Source: Spirochaetota bacterium
Lineage (GTDB): Bacteria > Spirochaetota > Spirochaetia > DSM-27196 > PWMO01
Reading direction: 5' to 3'
Assembly: GCA_009908735.1 (NCBI GenBank)
Contig: JAAAOR010000039.1
Coordinates: 1-21,628 of the forward strand
DNA length: 21,628 bases
The position numbers were made by a program, and so were the translations under genes. Position 1 is the first letter of the stretch, and every line of letters begins with the position of its first letter. The notes under the pieces are model-generated. The model was not told the DNA's origin, searched no databases, and worked only from the letters and a program-made list of their open reading frames with translations. This document shows, piece after piece, positions 4,951-15,219 of this stretch.

Positions 4951-5942
4951 CGCAGCGACCTGAAACTAATGAGCCGATCGTTCGCCTCGTCCCAGAGATT
5001 CATATTCACTGATTCAAAGCTATGTCTGACGGTGAGGTAATCCTTCAGCCTGAGCTCCGGAATGTCGTCAAGGCAGCGCTGCAGGTTGTAGTTGGGGATA
5101 CGGGGGCGCAGATGGTGGACGTGATGGAGGCCGATATTGGCGCTAAACCACTGGAACAGCTTGGGCAATTTGTAATAGGAGCTCCCTTCCATGGCGGCGT
5201 CCACGGTGTGCCATTCCTTCTCGCGCTTCCAATACCCTGGGTCGAACTGGTGCTGCACATAAAAGAGCCAAATGCCTGCCATGCCTGCAAAGTACATAAT
5301 CGTTAGCTGAATGAGCAAATAGTTGCCAAGCCCAATGGTTACGGTTGCAACGAGTACGATGGCTGCAATAGCGCCATTGGTGATCCAGACGCTCCTGCGT
5401 TGTCTCTTGTTGTCCAGTTTATGCGGCTTTCGCTGAGCCACAATAAATAGTAACAGCGGAGCGACTCCGAACATGAAGACCGGGTTCCGGTAGATCCTGT
5501 AGGCGAGACGTTTCCACCATGGGGAGTCGATGTACTCCTGCGCGGTCAACGTCCATACCTCGCCGATGGTTCGCCGGTCGAGGTTGCCGGAAGTGGAGTG
5601 GTGCACTCCATGTCCGTGTTGCCAGGAACCGTAGGCGGTAAAGGCGAAGACTCCGAGGATGTGGCCCACGATCCGGTTCGCCTTCTGGCTCTTGAAAAAG
5701 GAGCCGTGGGAGCAGTCGTGAAACAGCACGAAGAGGCGCACCATGAAGGCAGCAGCCGGAATCGAGAGAAGGATGGTCGCCCAGGCGGGATATCCCGCCT
5801 CTATAGATAGGTACATCAGTACGGCAAGTCCGAGGTAGGGGATTAGAGTATTCGTTAGCTGCCATACCGCACGCGCGGTGGCAGGTTTTTCGTACGCTTT
5901 GAGCTGAGCGACCCAGCTTGGTTTTTCCTGGTTACGTTCCAT
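4926..5942 (-). CDS. Membrane fatty acid desaturase (acyl-lipid type)
   Basis: About 338 residues with the three histidine boxes of membrane di-iron desaturases: HDCSH, HGHGVHH and HHVHH followed by LRPRIPNY, the last typical of acyl-lipid delta-12/omega-3-like enzymes. Several hydrophobic segments flank the boxes. The enzyme uses O2 and an electron donor to insert a double bond in membrane acyl chains. Two starts are possible: GTG at 5957 or ATG at 5942; neither has a clear Shine-Dalgarno, and I prefer the ATG. It is read in the same direction as the Crp/Fnr gene 129 bp upstream, but the gap allows its own promoter. No electron-transfer partner is in the window; regiospecificity is not decidable by eye. 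Confidence 0.9.
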   Translation of the reverse strand: MERNQEKPSWVAQLKAYEKPATARAVWQLTNTLIPYLGLAVLMYLSIEAGYPAWATILLSIPAAAFMVRLFVLFHDCSHGSFFKSQKANRIVGHILGVFAFTAYGSWQHGHGVHHSTSGNLDRRTIGEVWTLTAQEYIDSPWWKRLAYRIYRNPVFMFGVAPLLLFIVAQRKPHKLDNKRQRRSVWITNGAIAAIVLVATVTIGLGNYLLIQLTIMYFAGMAGIWLFYVQHQFDPGYWKREKEWHTVDAAMEGSSYYKLPKLFQWFSANIGLHHVHHLRPRIPNYNLQRCLDDIPELRLKDYLTVRHSFESVNMNLWDEANDRLISFRSLRKATPSVA

Positions 5943-7083: not shown

Positions 7084-8973
7084 ATGTGGAAAGACATATT
7101 CAATAGAAACTCAAAAACACCCGGCAAGATCTCGCTCTGGCATATACTATTAGTCTTCCTTCTCTTGACCGCCGTGCGCCCTCTGTTGGGCTCTCTCTTC
7201 GGGAGCGGCCCGAGAGACTTCTCCTACAGCGAGTTCACCTCGGCGGTCGTGGCGAACGCGGTGGAAAGCGTCACCATCGGCGCCGAGCGCATAGACGGCG
7301 TCCTCGCCGACGGAAGCTCCTTCAAAACGGTGCGCGTCGAGGACTCCTCGCTTTTGCCGATCCTGCGTGAGCACGGCGTAGCGGTGCGCGGGCGCACAAG
7401 CAGTAACCTTCTTGGATGGCTATTTCCGTTGGCGCTTATGTTCGGCGTATCCTTCTGGATGATGCGGCGAATGAGCGGCGGGAAAGGGGGTATCGGTTCC
7501 GGCCTTTTCTCTTTCGGCAAGAGCAAAGCGCGCATGACTGAAGGTGAGCAGAGCGGCGTCACCTTTGAGAATATCGGTGGTGCCGGAGAAGCGGTCGCGG
7601 ACCTGCGCGAAATCACCGAGTTCCTGAAGAGCCCCGACCGCTTTCAGCGGCTCGGCGGTAAGATGCCCAAAGGCGTGCTCCTTGTGGGACCCCCGGGAAC
7701 CGGTAAGACGCTTCTGGCGAGGGCAACGGCCGGGGAGGCGGGAGTTCCGTTCTTCTCTCTCAGCGGAGCGGAGTTTGTGGAGATGTTCGTTGGTGTCGGC
7801 GCCTCGAGAGTCCGGGATCTTTTTCAGCAGGCAAAGACCAAGGCCCCGGCGATCGTTTTTATCGATGAGATCGACGCCATAGGCAGTCGGCGATCCGGCG
7901 GCGTGGGAATGCCGACAAACGACGAGCGAGAACAGACGCTTAACCAGCTTCTCGCCGAGATGGATGGATTCCAGCCGACCACGGGGCTCATTCTCATTGC
8001 CGCCACCAATCGACCGGAGGTGCTCGACCCGGCGCTCCTTCGCCCCGGTCGTTTTGATCGGCGGGTAGTGGTGGGGCTGCCGGACCTCGCCGGACGCCTG
8101 GAAATACTCGAGATACACACCGAGGGAATCACCCTTGCCCCCGACGTGAAGCTCGAGAAGCTTGCCCGGATAACGCCGGGATTCTCCGGCGCCGATGTGG
8201 CGAACGTCATTAACGAGGCGGCGCTCCTGGCTTCACGGGACGACAAAGAGGCGGTTTCCGCGGGAGACTTCGATAGCGCCATCGAGCGTGTCGTTGCGGG
8301 CTCGGAGCGCAAAACCCGCGCCATGAACGAGCGGGAGAAGCGGGTAGTGGCGGCGCACGAGGCCGGACACGCCCTGGTTGCGGCCCTGATTCCCGGAGTT
8401 GATCCGGTGCACAAGGTGAGCATCATTCCCAGGGGCAACGCCCTCGGCTACACCTGGCAACGGCCGGTGGAAGATCGCTACATAATGGGCCAGGAAGAGT
8501 TGCAGGATCGCCTGGCCGTACTCCTCGGGGGACGGGGCGCGGAGCGGCTCGTATTTACGGAGAACTCAACGGGAGCCGTCGACGACCTTGCGCGCGCCAC
8601 AGATCTGGCACGAAGAATGGTGACCGAGTACGGTATGAGCGAGGATCTCGGCCCGGTACGCCTCGCTTCGGACACGGAGGCGCAATATCTCGGTGCCTCG
8701 GGACATCTGGATGCCTCGGTGAGCGCAACAACCGCGGCGAAGGTGGATATAGAAACCGTCCGGATCGTTCGGGACGCTCTTAACAGGGCGATTGGCCTTC
8801 TTACAACGAACCGGAGCGCTTTGGAGGCCCTGTCACAGCTCTTGAGCGAAAAAGAGACGGTAAGCGGTGAAGAGATTGAAGGGATTATTGCCGGGCGGAG
8901 AAGGGCCCATCCGGAAAGCGCGGAGGTTTCGGGGAATAACGGCCGCGCGGATCCCCTCGCATCAATTCGTTAG
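7084..8973 (+). CDS. ftsH: ATP-dependent zinc metalloprotease FtsH
   Basis: A 629-residue membrane AAA+ protease that forms hexamers and degrades membrane and regulatory proteins. The layout is standard: membrane helix 1 at about residues 17-38, a periplasmic FtsH-extracellular domain, helix 2 at about 109-127, then the AAA+ module with Walker A GPPGTGKT (from about 201), Walker B FIDEID (around 259-264) and the second-region-of-homology [10 protein letters not shown]. The peptidase has zinc motif HEAGH (425-429) and an Asp pair at 500-501 that would supply the third ligand. An AGGAGG lies at about -10 before the ATG. The gene ends convergently with the GH130 gene, the two stop codons overlapping. 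Many genomes carry more than one FtsH; whether this is the main copy cannot be seen here. Confidence 0.96.
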
Positions 8974-13471: not shown

Positions 13472-14022
13472 CTACATTGCCCTCTTTATTCGTTCCCGGA
13501 GGAGGTCCGTGCTGGGCCAACCTTTACCGTTGTTCTCTTCATACCTGCGGCACGCCATCACCCCGTTTCCCTGGTAGCCCTCGAGGTCCTGTTCGTTGAC
13601 TTTGATAGTGGGAGATCCGGCGAAATGGAGTTCCTGGGCTCGATCTAAGTCTTCGACTGCAATGAGCTGTACTGAGGCGTCTATCTTCTCCTCCACAAGG
13701 ACGTCCAGAATATCGTTCCACGCCTGCCGGTACGACGGGCACGGGTCTGTGGGAGCCCGGCTCCGCCAGCAGCCGACGCAATGTCCACTCGAAGGGACAG
13801 TAGCTCCCCGATTTCCCTCAATGAGAAACCGAGCCGCTTGGCGTGGGCGATGAAACGCAACCGGTTGACCGCCTCCGGCGGAAACTGTCTGTATCCCGAC
13901 TCGCTCCGCTCCCGGGAACGATAGCGTGCGGGGCCGCCGCCCGGCGGCAATCGGGAACTCGCGCGGATCGGCGTAAAGCAGCAGATAGCCGTTATGACGG
14001 CTACTACTATGCCGAACTTCAT
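13472..14022 (-). pseudogene. Fused relic of a mer-like cluster: MerF-like start, MerR middle, thioredoxin-like end
   Basis: On the minus strand an ATG at 14022 with a GAAGGAA ribosome site starts a hydrophobic MKFGIVVAVITAICCFTP, the N-terminus of a MerF-like mercuric transporter with its Cys pair. It then breaks off and in the same frame becomes the middle of a MerR regulator (RSESGYRQFPPEAVNRLRF..., KRLGFSLREIGELLSLRVD), lacking the N-terminal HTH start and the C-terminal dimer helix and metal Cys region. After a shift to another frame comes the end of a small thioredoxin-like protein (CPSYRQAWNDIL..., FAGSPTIKVNEQDLEGYQG), which runs to the stop at 13472. Such Trx-like proteins often accompany MerR and Mer genes. 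No part can function as in the intact family, so at least two deletions and one frame change have occurred. Confidence 0.75.
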
Positions 14023-14051
14023 GAGCCGGTTCCTTCGAGGAGCACACGCGG

Positions 14052-14080
14052 TTGAATACACTACACTTGGAGAGCATTAT
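14052..14080 (+). promoter_or_regulatory. Candidate fitA promoter
   Basis: TTGAAT at 14052-14057 and CATTAT at 14075-14080 are separated by 17 bp, 35 bp before the fitA start. The -10 overlaps the first AGCATT repeat, which would allow autorepression by the antitoxin. Confidence 0.45.
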
Positions 14081-14114: not shown

Positions 14115-14369
14115 ATGGCTACGTTGACCATACGGAACTTCGACGACGAGCTGAAGTCCCGTCTAAGGGTTCGGGCCGCACGGCATGACCACTCGATGGA
14201 AGAAGAAGCAAGATCAATCCTCCGAAACGCATTGTCGGATTCCGAGGACATCGAGGAATCGATCGGCATCGGAACTCGAATCCGGAAACGACTGGAAGGT
14301 GTCGGAGGTGTCGATCTCGGCATATCCGGGAGAACCGAGAAGCCTCGAATCCCTGAGAACCTCGAATGA
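14115..14369 (+). CDS. fitA: FitA-type ribbon-helix-helix antitoxin
   Basis: An 84-residue protein whose N-terminus (MATLTIRNFDDELKSRLRVR, then HDHSMEEEARSILRNAL) is the Arc-like ribbon-helix-helix of FitA/VapB-type plasmid-stability antitoxins. The C-terminal 40 residues are less ordered, as usual for the toxin-wrapping tail. AGGAG at 14105-14109 supports the ATG at 14115; the open frame from 14052 has no ribosome site. Its TGA overlaps the ATG of the toxin gene, the normal arrangement, but that toxin gene is destroyed, so this antitoxin is now an orphan. It may persist as an anti-toxin against related PIN toxins elsewhere or simply as a repressor (inference). Confidence 0.85.
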   Translation: MATLTIRNFDDELKSRLRVRAARHDHSMEEEARSILRNALSDSEDIEESIGIGTRIRKRLEGVGGVDLGISGRTEKPRIPENLE

Positions 14370-14458
14370 TCGTCCTGGACACGAACGTCCTCTCCGAGAT
14401 CATGAAGCCGGAACCGGGACTCGAACCCGGACGGGCCTTACGGCCCAAAGGATTTTAA
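14366..14458 (+). pseudogene. fitB: Truncated FitB/VapC PIN-domain toxin fused into a tRNA-Leu fragment
   Basis: The reading frame begins MIVLDTNVLSEIMKPEP, an exact PIN-domain start with the first catalytic Asp (Asp5) and the usual FitB-like sequence. From about codon 15 the DNA is the reverse complement of the 3' half of a tRNA-Leu, giving a short nonsense tail and a TAA at 14456. A full toxin is about 130-140 residues, so the nuclease core is missing. The join lies in shared bases (GCCGGAACCG) that make sense both as toxin codons (K-P-E-P) and as the tRNA acceptor end. Confidence 0.85.
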
Positions 14459-14461
14459 GTC
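14407..14461 (-). repeat. Duplicated 3' half of tRNA-Leu (att-like direct repeat)
   Basis: 53 of 55 bases match 15135-15189. The copy covers the acceptor 3' strand, T arm, variable arm and anticodon loop of the minus-strand tRNA and stops just past the anticodon. The only differences are two adjacent bases (14448-14449 AA against GG) in the 3' strand of the anticodon stem. It cannot make a tRNA. Confidence 0.9.
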
Positions 14462-14472
14462 AGAGGCTGGTA

Positions 14473-14501
14473 TTGAAATAGCATGCGCAACATGCTATTC
14501 T
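14473..14501 (+). promoter_or_regulatory. higBA promoter with overlapping palindromic operator
   Basis: TTGAAA (14473-14478), a 17-bp spacer and TATTCT (14496-14501, preceded by TGC as an extended -10) form a strong promoter. A perfect 9-bp inverted repeat (AATAGCATG at 14477-14485 and CATGCTATT at 14491-14499, 5-bp centre) fills the spacer and overlaps both hexamers, the expected place for the HigA repressor. Transcription would start at about 14508-14509, at the higB start codon itself. Confidence 0.7.
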
Positions 14502-14508
14502 TTTACGT

Positions 14509-14808
14509 GTGATTCAGTCATTCCGGGACGATGCGGGTGAAGACCTGTTTAATGGACGGAACACCAAACAAGCTCGCAAAACGTGTCCGGAATCTCTGTG
14601 GAGAGTGCTATCCAGGAAGCTGGATGCGCTCGATTCCGCCGAACGTCTGGAGGATCTTCGGATACCACCGGGTAATCGTCTCGAGCACCTCTCAGGAAAG
14701 CGAGCCGGACAACACAGCATCAGGGTGGACGAGCAGTATCGGATCTGCTTTACCTGGACCGAGGGTGGACCGGAGAACGTCGAGGTGACTGATTATCACG
14801 ATGAGTGA
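14509..14808 (+). CDS. higB: HigB-family (RelE superfamily) mRNA interferase toxin
   Basis: A 99-residue protein starting MIQSFRDDAGEDLF and ending in the RelE-fold strands SGKRAGQHSIRVDEQYRICF and VEVTDYHDE, as in HigB toxins that cleave mRNA on the ribosome. Length is normal for the family (about 92-110). The start is GTG at 14509; no Shine-Dalgarno is present and the -10 ends only 7 nt upstream, so translation is probably leaderless. Toxin-first order with the antitoxin just downstream is typical of higBA. All expected parts are present, so it looks functional. Confidence 0.9.
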   Translation: MIQSFRDDAGEDLFNGRNTKQARKTCPESLWRVLSRKLDALDSAERLEDLRIPPGNRLEHLSGKRAGQHSIRVDEQYRICFTWTEGGPENVEVTDYHDE

Positions 14809-14816
14809 GGGAGCAT

Positions 14817-15125
14817 ATGGTACGAGTACCTACTGATCGACAGCCTACCCATCCCGGAGAGATCCTGAGAGAGGAGTTCCTTGAGCCGATGGGCCTTACG
14901 CAACAGGAACTTGCGGATGCGATCCACGTTCCGTTTCAACGTGTTAACGAGATTGTCCGGGGGCGCCGAGCGATGAGCACTTCCACGGCACTTCGGTTGT
15001 CTCGATATTTTGGGACAACCGCAGGGTTCTGGATGAATCTGCAGCTACGGTATGATCTTTACAAGACCGAGCGTTCCGAGAAGGAAACCCTTGAGGACAT
15101 CGAGCCTTTGCATCAAGTGGGCTGA
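14817..15125 (+). CDS. higA: HigA-family antitoxin (XRE helix-turn-helix)
   Basis: A 102-residue protein with the HigA hallmark HPGEILREEFLEPMGLTQQELADAI, an XRE-type helix-turn-helix through residues of about 30-80 (VPFQRVNEIVRGRRAMSTSTALRLSRYFG) and the family end FWMNLQLRYDLY. It neutralises HigB and represses the promoter at 14473. I choose the ATG at 14817, with AGGGAG at 14808-14813; an upstream in-frame GTG at 14805 overlaps the higB stop and has no ribosome site. The gene ends 8 bp from the 3' end of the tRNA-Leu. Confidence 0.93.
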   Translation: MVRVPTDRQPTHPGEILREEFLEPMGLTQQELADAIHVPFQRVNEIVRGRRAMSTSTALRLSRYFGTTAGFWMNLQLRYDLYKTERSEKETLEDIEPLHQVG

Positions 15126-15133
15126 GCTTGTTC

Positions 15134-15219
15134 TGCCGGAACCGGGACTCGAACCCGGACGGGCCTTACGGCCCAGGGGATTTTAAGTCCCCTGCGTCTA
15201 CCAGTTCCGCCATTCCGGC
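15134..15219 (-). tRNA. tRNA-Leu (anticodon UAA)
   Basis: Read on the minus strand it folds as a complete class II tRNA of 86 nt: acceptor GCCGGAA/TTCCGGC, D arm with ACTGGTAGACG, anticodon stem GGGGA/TCCCC with loop CTTAAAA (anticodon TAA), a long variable arm (GGGCCGTAAGGCCC), T arm with GGTTCGAGTCC, and discriminator A as required for leucine. CCA is not encoded. It is the attachment site of the adjacent mini-island. Confidence 0.97.
15135..15189 (-). repeat. att-like direct repeat inside the intact tRNA-Leu
   Basis: This is the partner of the remnant at 14407-14461 (53/55 identical). It begins at the last acceptor base pair and runs just through the anticodon loop, a region commonly used as a tyrosine-integrase crossover core. 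Confidence 0.85.

Follow-up and report, generated by a model that had tools for sequence, protein, structure and literature searches.

Additive flexible genomic islands, described in ‘Ca. Actinomarinales’ (PMC7771536) and ‘Ca. Methylopumilus’ (PMC10872708), are small cassettes at tRNA genes that are marked by partial tRNA repeats and that can be as short as 330 bp. Cis-mobilizable elements (CIMEs) are characterised by the presence of both attachment sites together with the lack of integration and transfer genes (PMC5704250). Tycheposons of Prochlorococcus are tRNA-bordered cargo elements of 4–200 kb with a tyrosine recombinase, xerD (as cited in PMC10872708). Among the literature matches listed, represented by titles and abstract openings, none describes a tRNA cassette with toxin–antitoxin (TA) genes only, although the print record may still contain one.

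Here, we compare these systems with a locus contained in a stretch of 21,628 nucleotides of spirochaete DNA (henceforth the window; positions given without a locus name refer to it). We consider it probable that the segment 14407–15219 represents an integrative island, reduced and non-autonomous, next to the 3′ end of tRNA-Leu(UAA), with a horizontally spread higBA cassette as its core. Its anatomy fits additive islands and CIME-like remnants, i.e., known kinds of element; what is particular is that a TA pair is the sole cargo and that it recurs at one tRNA. The locus differs from additive islands in its spirochaete host, in a repeat that reaches the anticodon loop (53–57 bp) and in the recurrence of one homologous TA cassette at the same tRNA in at least two orders. 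It resembles a CIME in its anatomy (attachment-site repeats and cargo without integration or transfer genes), but it measures 0.7 kb and holds a single TA pair, whereas a CIME derives from an ICE or IME and is mobilised by accretion. With tycheposons it shares cargo bordered by a tRNA gene, while lacking their tyrosine recombinase. The features of the locus are as follows.

14115–14369, plus strand: fitA-like ribbon-helix-helix antitoxin gene in the left flank, outside the repeat (PF22513, E 1.9e-19)
14366–14458, plus strand: vapC/fitB remnant of 30 codons and a stop, beginning with ATG 14366 and reading in frame into the tRNA copy
14407–14461, minus strand, like the gene: att-like copy of tRNA-Leu positions 31–85, 53/55 identical
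14473–14501, plus strand: promoter-like site before higBA, TTGAAA-17-TATTCT
14509–14808, plus strand: higB, intact gene of a RelE-like toxin of 99 aa (PF05015, E 5.9e-20)
14817–15125, plus strand: higA antitoxin gene, HTH_3 (PF01381, E 1.1e-10), with the frame also open from GTG 14805
15134–15219, minus strand: intact tRNA-Leu(UAA), the target gene at one island end (ARAGORN; Rfam tRNA, 58.3 bits)
15271–15243, minus strand: promoter-like site upstream of tRNA-Leu(UAA)

A preliminary description of this DNA had reported a 55-bp copy of the 3′ half of tRNA-Leu(UAA), 728 bp from the intact gene and in the same orientation, with the geometry of an integrase-made island and nothing except higBA between the repeats. 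These observations were borne out by ARAGORN, Rfam and shuffled sequences. Specifically, 14407–14461 and 15135–15189 form a direct repeat of 55 nt at 96% identity and a spacing of 728 bp; the copy runs from the anticodon stem-loop to the acceptor end and leaves out the discriminator base, so that a whole tRNA stands at one end and a direct 3′ fragment at the other. A 24-base probe from the repeat, allowing up to 3 mismatches, hit exactly two places in the window and none in 100 shuffles. Neither ARAGORN nor Rfam called a second tRNA at 14407–14461, and the tRNA 5′ half that would mark an independently decayed gene was looked for beside the copy and was absent. Between the repeats lie, in order, 11 bases, the promoter-like site, higB, higA and 8 bases up to the tRNA end, meaning that the cassette is a TA operon with its likely promoter and next to no other content. 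We regard an assembly artefact or chance as scarcely credible: several relatives’ contigs do break at or near tRNA-Leu, which marks it as a hard-to-assemble place, but copy and gene have two mismatches between them, the flanks of the copy are unique, a like layout is found in a related genome (G294, see below) and the shuffles gave no match.

The cargo has the arrangement of a type II higBA system, i.e., a HigB-like toxin gene followed by an HTH antitoxin gene, with overlapping frames and in one operon. A perfect 9-bp palindrome (14477–14485/14491–14499) lies within the spacer of the promoter-like site, and a similar layout of promoter and palindrome was seen by eye in all 6 aligned loci, with the palindrome imperfect in some of them. 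From its placement, the palindrome is the probable operator of higBA, and the operon is probably autorepressed.

We then compared the tRNA-Leu(UAA) locus across the class. The window tRNA was matched in 360 of 394 genomes, with at most 2 candidates scored per genome, and loci were chosen by their rank of similarity to the window tRNA or for kinship in HigA or family; of 72 loci, the 64 with a called UAA gene were kept and 8 were dropped. Downstream copies reaching tRNA position 31 or 32 were found in 4 of these 64 loci, with inner ends at position 31 in the window, in G294 (locus L145) and in G269 (L253), and at position 32 in G284 (L155), where the inner end is less sharp, as a looser repeat goes on past position 32 with mismatches (62 nt, 94%). 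No upstream copy reached the anticodon stem-loop at any of the 64 loci, a control weaker than the downstream count given that 43 of them had no more than 1.6 kb of upstream sequence; when only loci with at least 3.5 kb on the side concerned are considered, the counts are 4 of 43 on the downstream side and 0 of 20 on the upstream side. An inner end at this place is what tyrosine integrases leave when they recombine in the anticodon loop, and we take position 31/32 to be their crossover position. Since four loci share one inner end at the anticodon loop, an integrase is the likely maker of the copy.

No recombinase adjoins the attachment site, in line with the earlier claim that the island has none: higB and higA are the only genes between the window repeats, and no integrase was detected downstream of the 64 tRNA-Leu loci (344 kb in total, up to 8 kb each, the full 8 kb in 19) with 15 proteins as queries, of which two were apparently read in a wrong frame. 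Likewise, a PF00589 search of the contigs with tRNA-Leu or higBA in 14 genomes gave no tyrosine recombinase, such enzymes being present elsewhere in the same genomes. Two of the loci with the long copy, L155:2882-6408 in G284 and L253 in G269 (G269:C1:3396000-3405600), are 3.4-kb islands with other cargo and no detected integrase, each with a perfect 53–54 bp 3′ copy of tRNA-Leu(UAA) at its far end; in G269 the repeat continues for about 115 bp beyond the tRNA end and takes in what looks by eye like a terminator stem.

A copy could also have arisen without any integrase, through template switching or a tandem duplication affecting the tRNA tail, with higBA settling there by ordinary recombination. 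We find this quite unlikely. It would agree with the 66-bp tail repeats at L145 and L151, with single downstream tails of 15–20 bp at six loci (L205, L222, L225, L246, L250 and L259) and with a vapC junction that falls in a short look-alike stretch (see below), but duplication alone does not predict one inner end common to four loci, nor related higBA in two orders.

HigA at 80% identity or more was found in 5 of the 394 genomes (G028, G252, G294, G188 and G297), and 15 HigB clusters matched at 81–94%, three of which are named (Alkalispirochaeta sp., Spirochaetaceae and Spirochaetia). A related higBA lies on the 3′ side of tRNA-Leu(UAA), in the same orientation, in the window, in L145 (G294) and in L205 (G028), with 1.26 kb between higA and the tRNA in L145 and about 0.54 kb in L205. 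The L145 locus reads tail repeat, tRNA copy (5589–5645), higB, higA, a truncated Mutator-type transposase, two tail repeats and tRNA-Leu (7798–7882), and is thus a larger version of the island, at 2.2 kb. L205 reads 17-bp tRNA end, higB, higA, about 0.54 kb and tRNA-Leu. The alignment across genomes proposed in the preliminary description hence turned up a larger island with related higBA at the same tRNA, one in which no integrase was detected. For G188, G252 and G297 the linkage to tRNA-Leu is only suggested: in L206 (G252) a decayed copy lies left of higBA and the contig stops 10 bp past higA, while in G188 (L207) and G297 (L208) the contigs end 195 bp and 212 bp past higA, with tRNA-tail sequence before the end. 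In G297, tRNA-Leu(UAA) is on a separate contig, and the 493 bp downstream of it are without higBA. The expectation that higBA at this place is accompanied by the repeat therefore held in part, L145 having the copy and L205 only the 17-bp tRNA end, with no long copy on the L207 contig and the G297 tRNA elsewhere. More distant HigA relatives (L209–L212, 64% or less) had no tRNA within the stretches examined (n=4).

To place the cassette relative to its hosts, UvrD was taken as a yardstick of divergence in place of RecA, which was matched in 3 of the 5 genomes. Among 21 genomes searched, G252 and G294 gave the best matches to the window UvrD, at 62% identity, which identifies the window as spirochaetal; at this distance no relative close enough for an empty-site comparison was found. 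Strongly shared DNA is confined to a promoter–higBA block of about 655 bp. In higBA DNA, the window is 82–84% identical to G294, G028 or G252 and 72–74% to G297 and G188, and G294, G028 and G252 are 90–91% identical to one another. By contrast, UvrD identities among the window, G252 and G294 are 64–65%, well below the 82–91% of higBA, whereas in the same-family pair G294–G188 the two measures are alike (higBA 76%, UvrD 75%). The G028 UvrD match, at 37–42%, is probably a paralogue and gives no measure of that genome’s divergence. The order of G252 (46 genomes) contains G294, G188 and G297, with G028 outside it, so at least two orders have related higBA at one and the same tRNA. Upstream of this tRNA, the neighbours are different as well: a histidine kinase in the window, a SpoU methylase region in the family of G294 and a TatD region in L205. 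That higBA is far more alike than UvrD, in differing flanks, points to a horizontally spread cassette. Vertical inheritance, in which an ancestral higBA stood beside tRNA-Leu(UAA) and both flanks were rearranged later, would account for the same orientation in 3 of 3 resolved cases, but HigA at this level of identity in just 5 of 394 genomes and a higBA similarity that contradicts UvrD similarity make it highly improbable.

The left end of the window copy holds a feature that had been overlooked, the start of a second toxin gene (vapC) joined in frame to the copy. In L207 (G188) the corresponding vapC is complete, a PIN gene (PF01850), next to a fitA that is a 74% homologue of the window’s fitA-like gene. 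DNA homology between the window and this fitA–vapC pair stops at 14417, 11 bases within the copy, and those 11 bases are identical to L207 at 8 positions; vapC start and tRNA end look alike at the junction. The simplest reading would be that a deletion trimmed a longer island.

The islands of G294 and G028 share a 133-bp arm left of higBA (71% identity), which starts 3 bases past the tRNA core in G294 and 47 bases past the 17-bp tRNA end in G028. A class-wide search returned the arm in these two genomes only (2 of 394, with at most 2 candidates scored per genome); it missed a weaker match in L208 of G297 (66% over 102 bp), meaning that the arm is not unique to the two islands. The window is without the arm and has no room for it. 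This suggests that the window copy is a reduced form, and probably an immobile one.

Of the two readings offered in the preliminary description, a core left after an island shrank is thus the better one, and for the window copy we prefer shrinkage to present mobility on account of the vapC cut at the tRNA copy and the missing arm. The other reading, a present-day minimal mobile cassette in which promoter–higBA and the tRNA cores are excised and inserted by an integrase that acts in trans and is encoded on a passing element or at another place in the cell, strikes us as unlikely. The short cargo, the recurrence of a related cassette beside this tRNA in two orders or more, the G284 and G269 islands with the same breakpoint and no detected integrase, and the tyrosine recombinases elsewhere in the 14 scanned genomes are all compatible with it; yet the window lacks the arm common to G294 and G028, its cores differ at 2 of 55 positions, and the vapC truncation speaks of a past deletion rather than a clean insertion. 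The broader proposition, that promoter–higBA and tRNA-Leu(UAA) cores constitute a dedicated non-autonomous mobile unit of less than 1 kb that an integrase acting in trans has carried between spirochaete orders, we put forward as a tentative possibility.

For the reduced island that we favour, the following course of events would fit the comparison of these loci. A higBA element would have entered by site-specific recombination in the tRNA anticodon loop; the 3′ portion of the present tRNA would then come from the element, and the original 3′ portion, pushed aside, would be the distal copy; the recombinase would have been lost, or may never have been part of the element. DNA between vapC and the distal copy would later have been lost in this lineage, probably when the short look-alike stretches of vapC and the tRNA end recombined; this would have fused vapC to the copy and left no cargo other than promoter–higB–higA. 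Selection against loss, presumably through addiction, is the most likely reason why the pair persists. Against this course, homology of the window to other islands starts at the promoter, and the cassette might have come by another route. Moreover, neither an empty site, an excised junction or a circle, nor a recombinase specific for tRNA-Leu(UAA), came to light in this comparison.

Several TA pieces are stacked near one tRNA end in L207:4633-6043, left of a complete higBA: the order there is fitA, intact vapC, a higA without its own higB, higBA, a repeat with the tRNA tail and the contig end. In G206, a VapC-like frame recognised by eye (L164:6118-6498, minus strand) enters the intact tRNA-Leu with its 3′ end, much like the window vapC at its tRNA copy; it appears to be a further toxin gene truncated by the end of a tRNA-Leu. 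Further left in the window, 13472–14061 holds a piece of a MerR-type regulator and a minus-strand frame whose homologue lies left of higBA in L207 and L208; this stretch may be part of an older, larger island.

The locus offers a natural test case of whether an insertion at a tRNA gene can be maintained, or even disseminated, by nothing more than a TA pair. The three resolved copies, some with extra DNA and some without, span at least two orders and could reveal what shrinking islands lose first and whether the addiction module goes last. Should the unit still be mobile, it would count as a very small element borrowing the integrase of another, and if spread in trans is the true reading, one of the smallest site-specific integrative elements would carry a TA pair and nothing else as cargo.

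Enrichment of TA genes at tRNA-Leu was not established: PF05015 accounted for 2 and HTH_3 for 3 of 143 ORFs within 1.4 kb downstream at 57 loci. Among plasmids, 36 records matched short parts of HigB or the tRNA, with no match reaching 80% coverage of the query, and none of 22 pattern matches in viral contigs was a HigB relative. The spot is variable on one side: upstream there is often TatD (21 of 146 ORFs, 62 loci), and downstream no family exceeds 3 of 143 ORFs among the 25 commonest of 67 families, single matches being hidden in these counts.

Units of 66 bp, each combining a hairpin, recognised by eye, with 16–18 bp from the 3′ end of the tRNA, occur downstream of tRNA-Leu(UAA) in G294 (L145:5524-5589 and 7667-7797) and G305 (L151:27-158); the window has none. 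We set these tail repeats aside as a source of the long copies, which have one common inner end. They resemble the tail repeats of E. coli tyrT, which are arranged in tandem downstream of the gene and contain the tRNA 3′ end. In L145, a higA fragment and the Mutator-type transposase fragment each end about 15 bp or less from a 66-bp unit.
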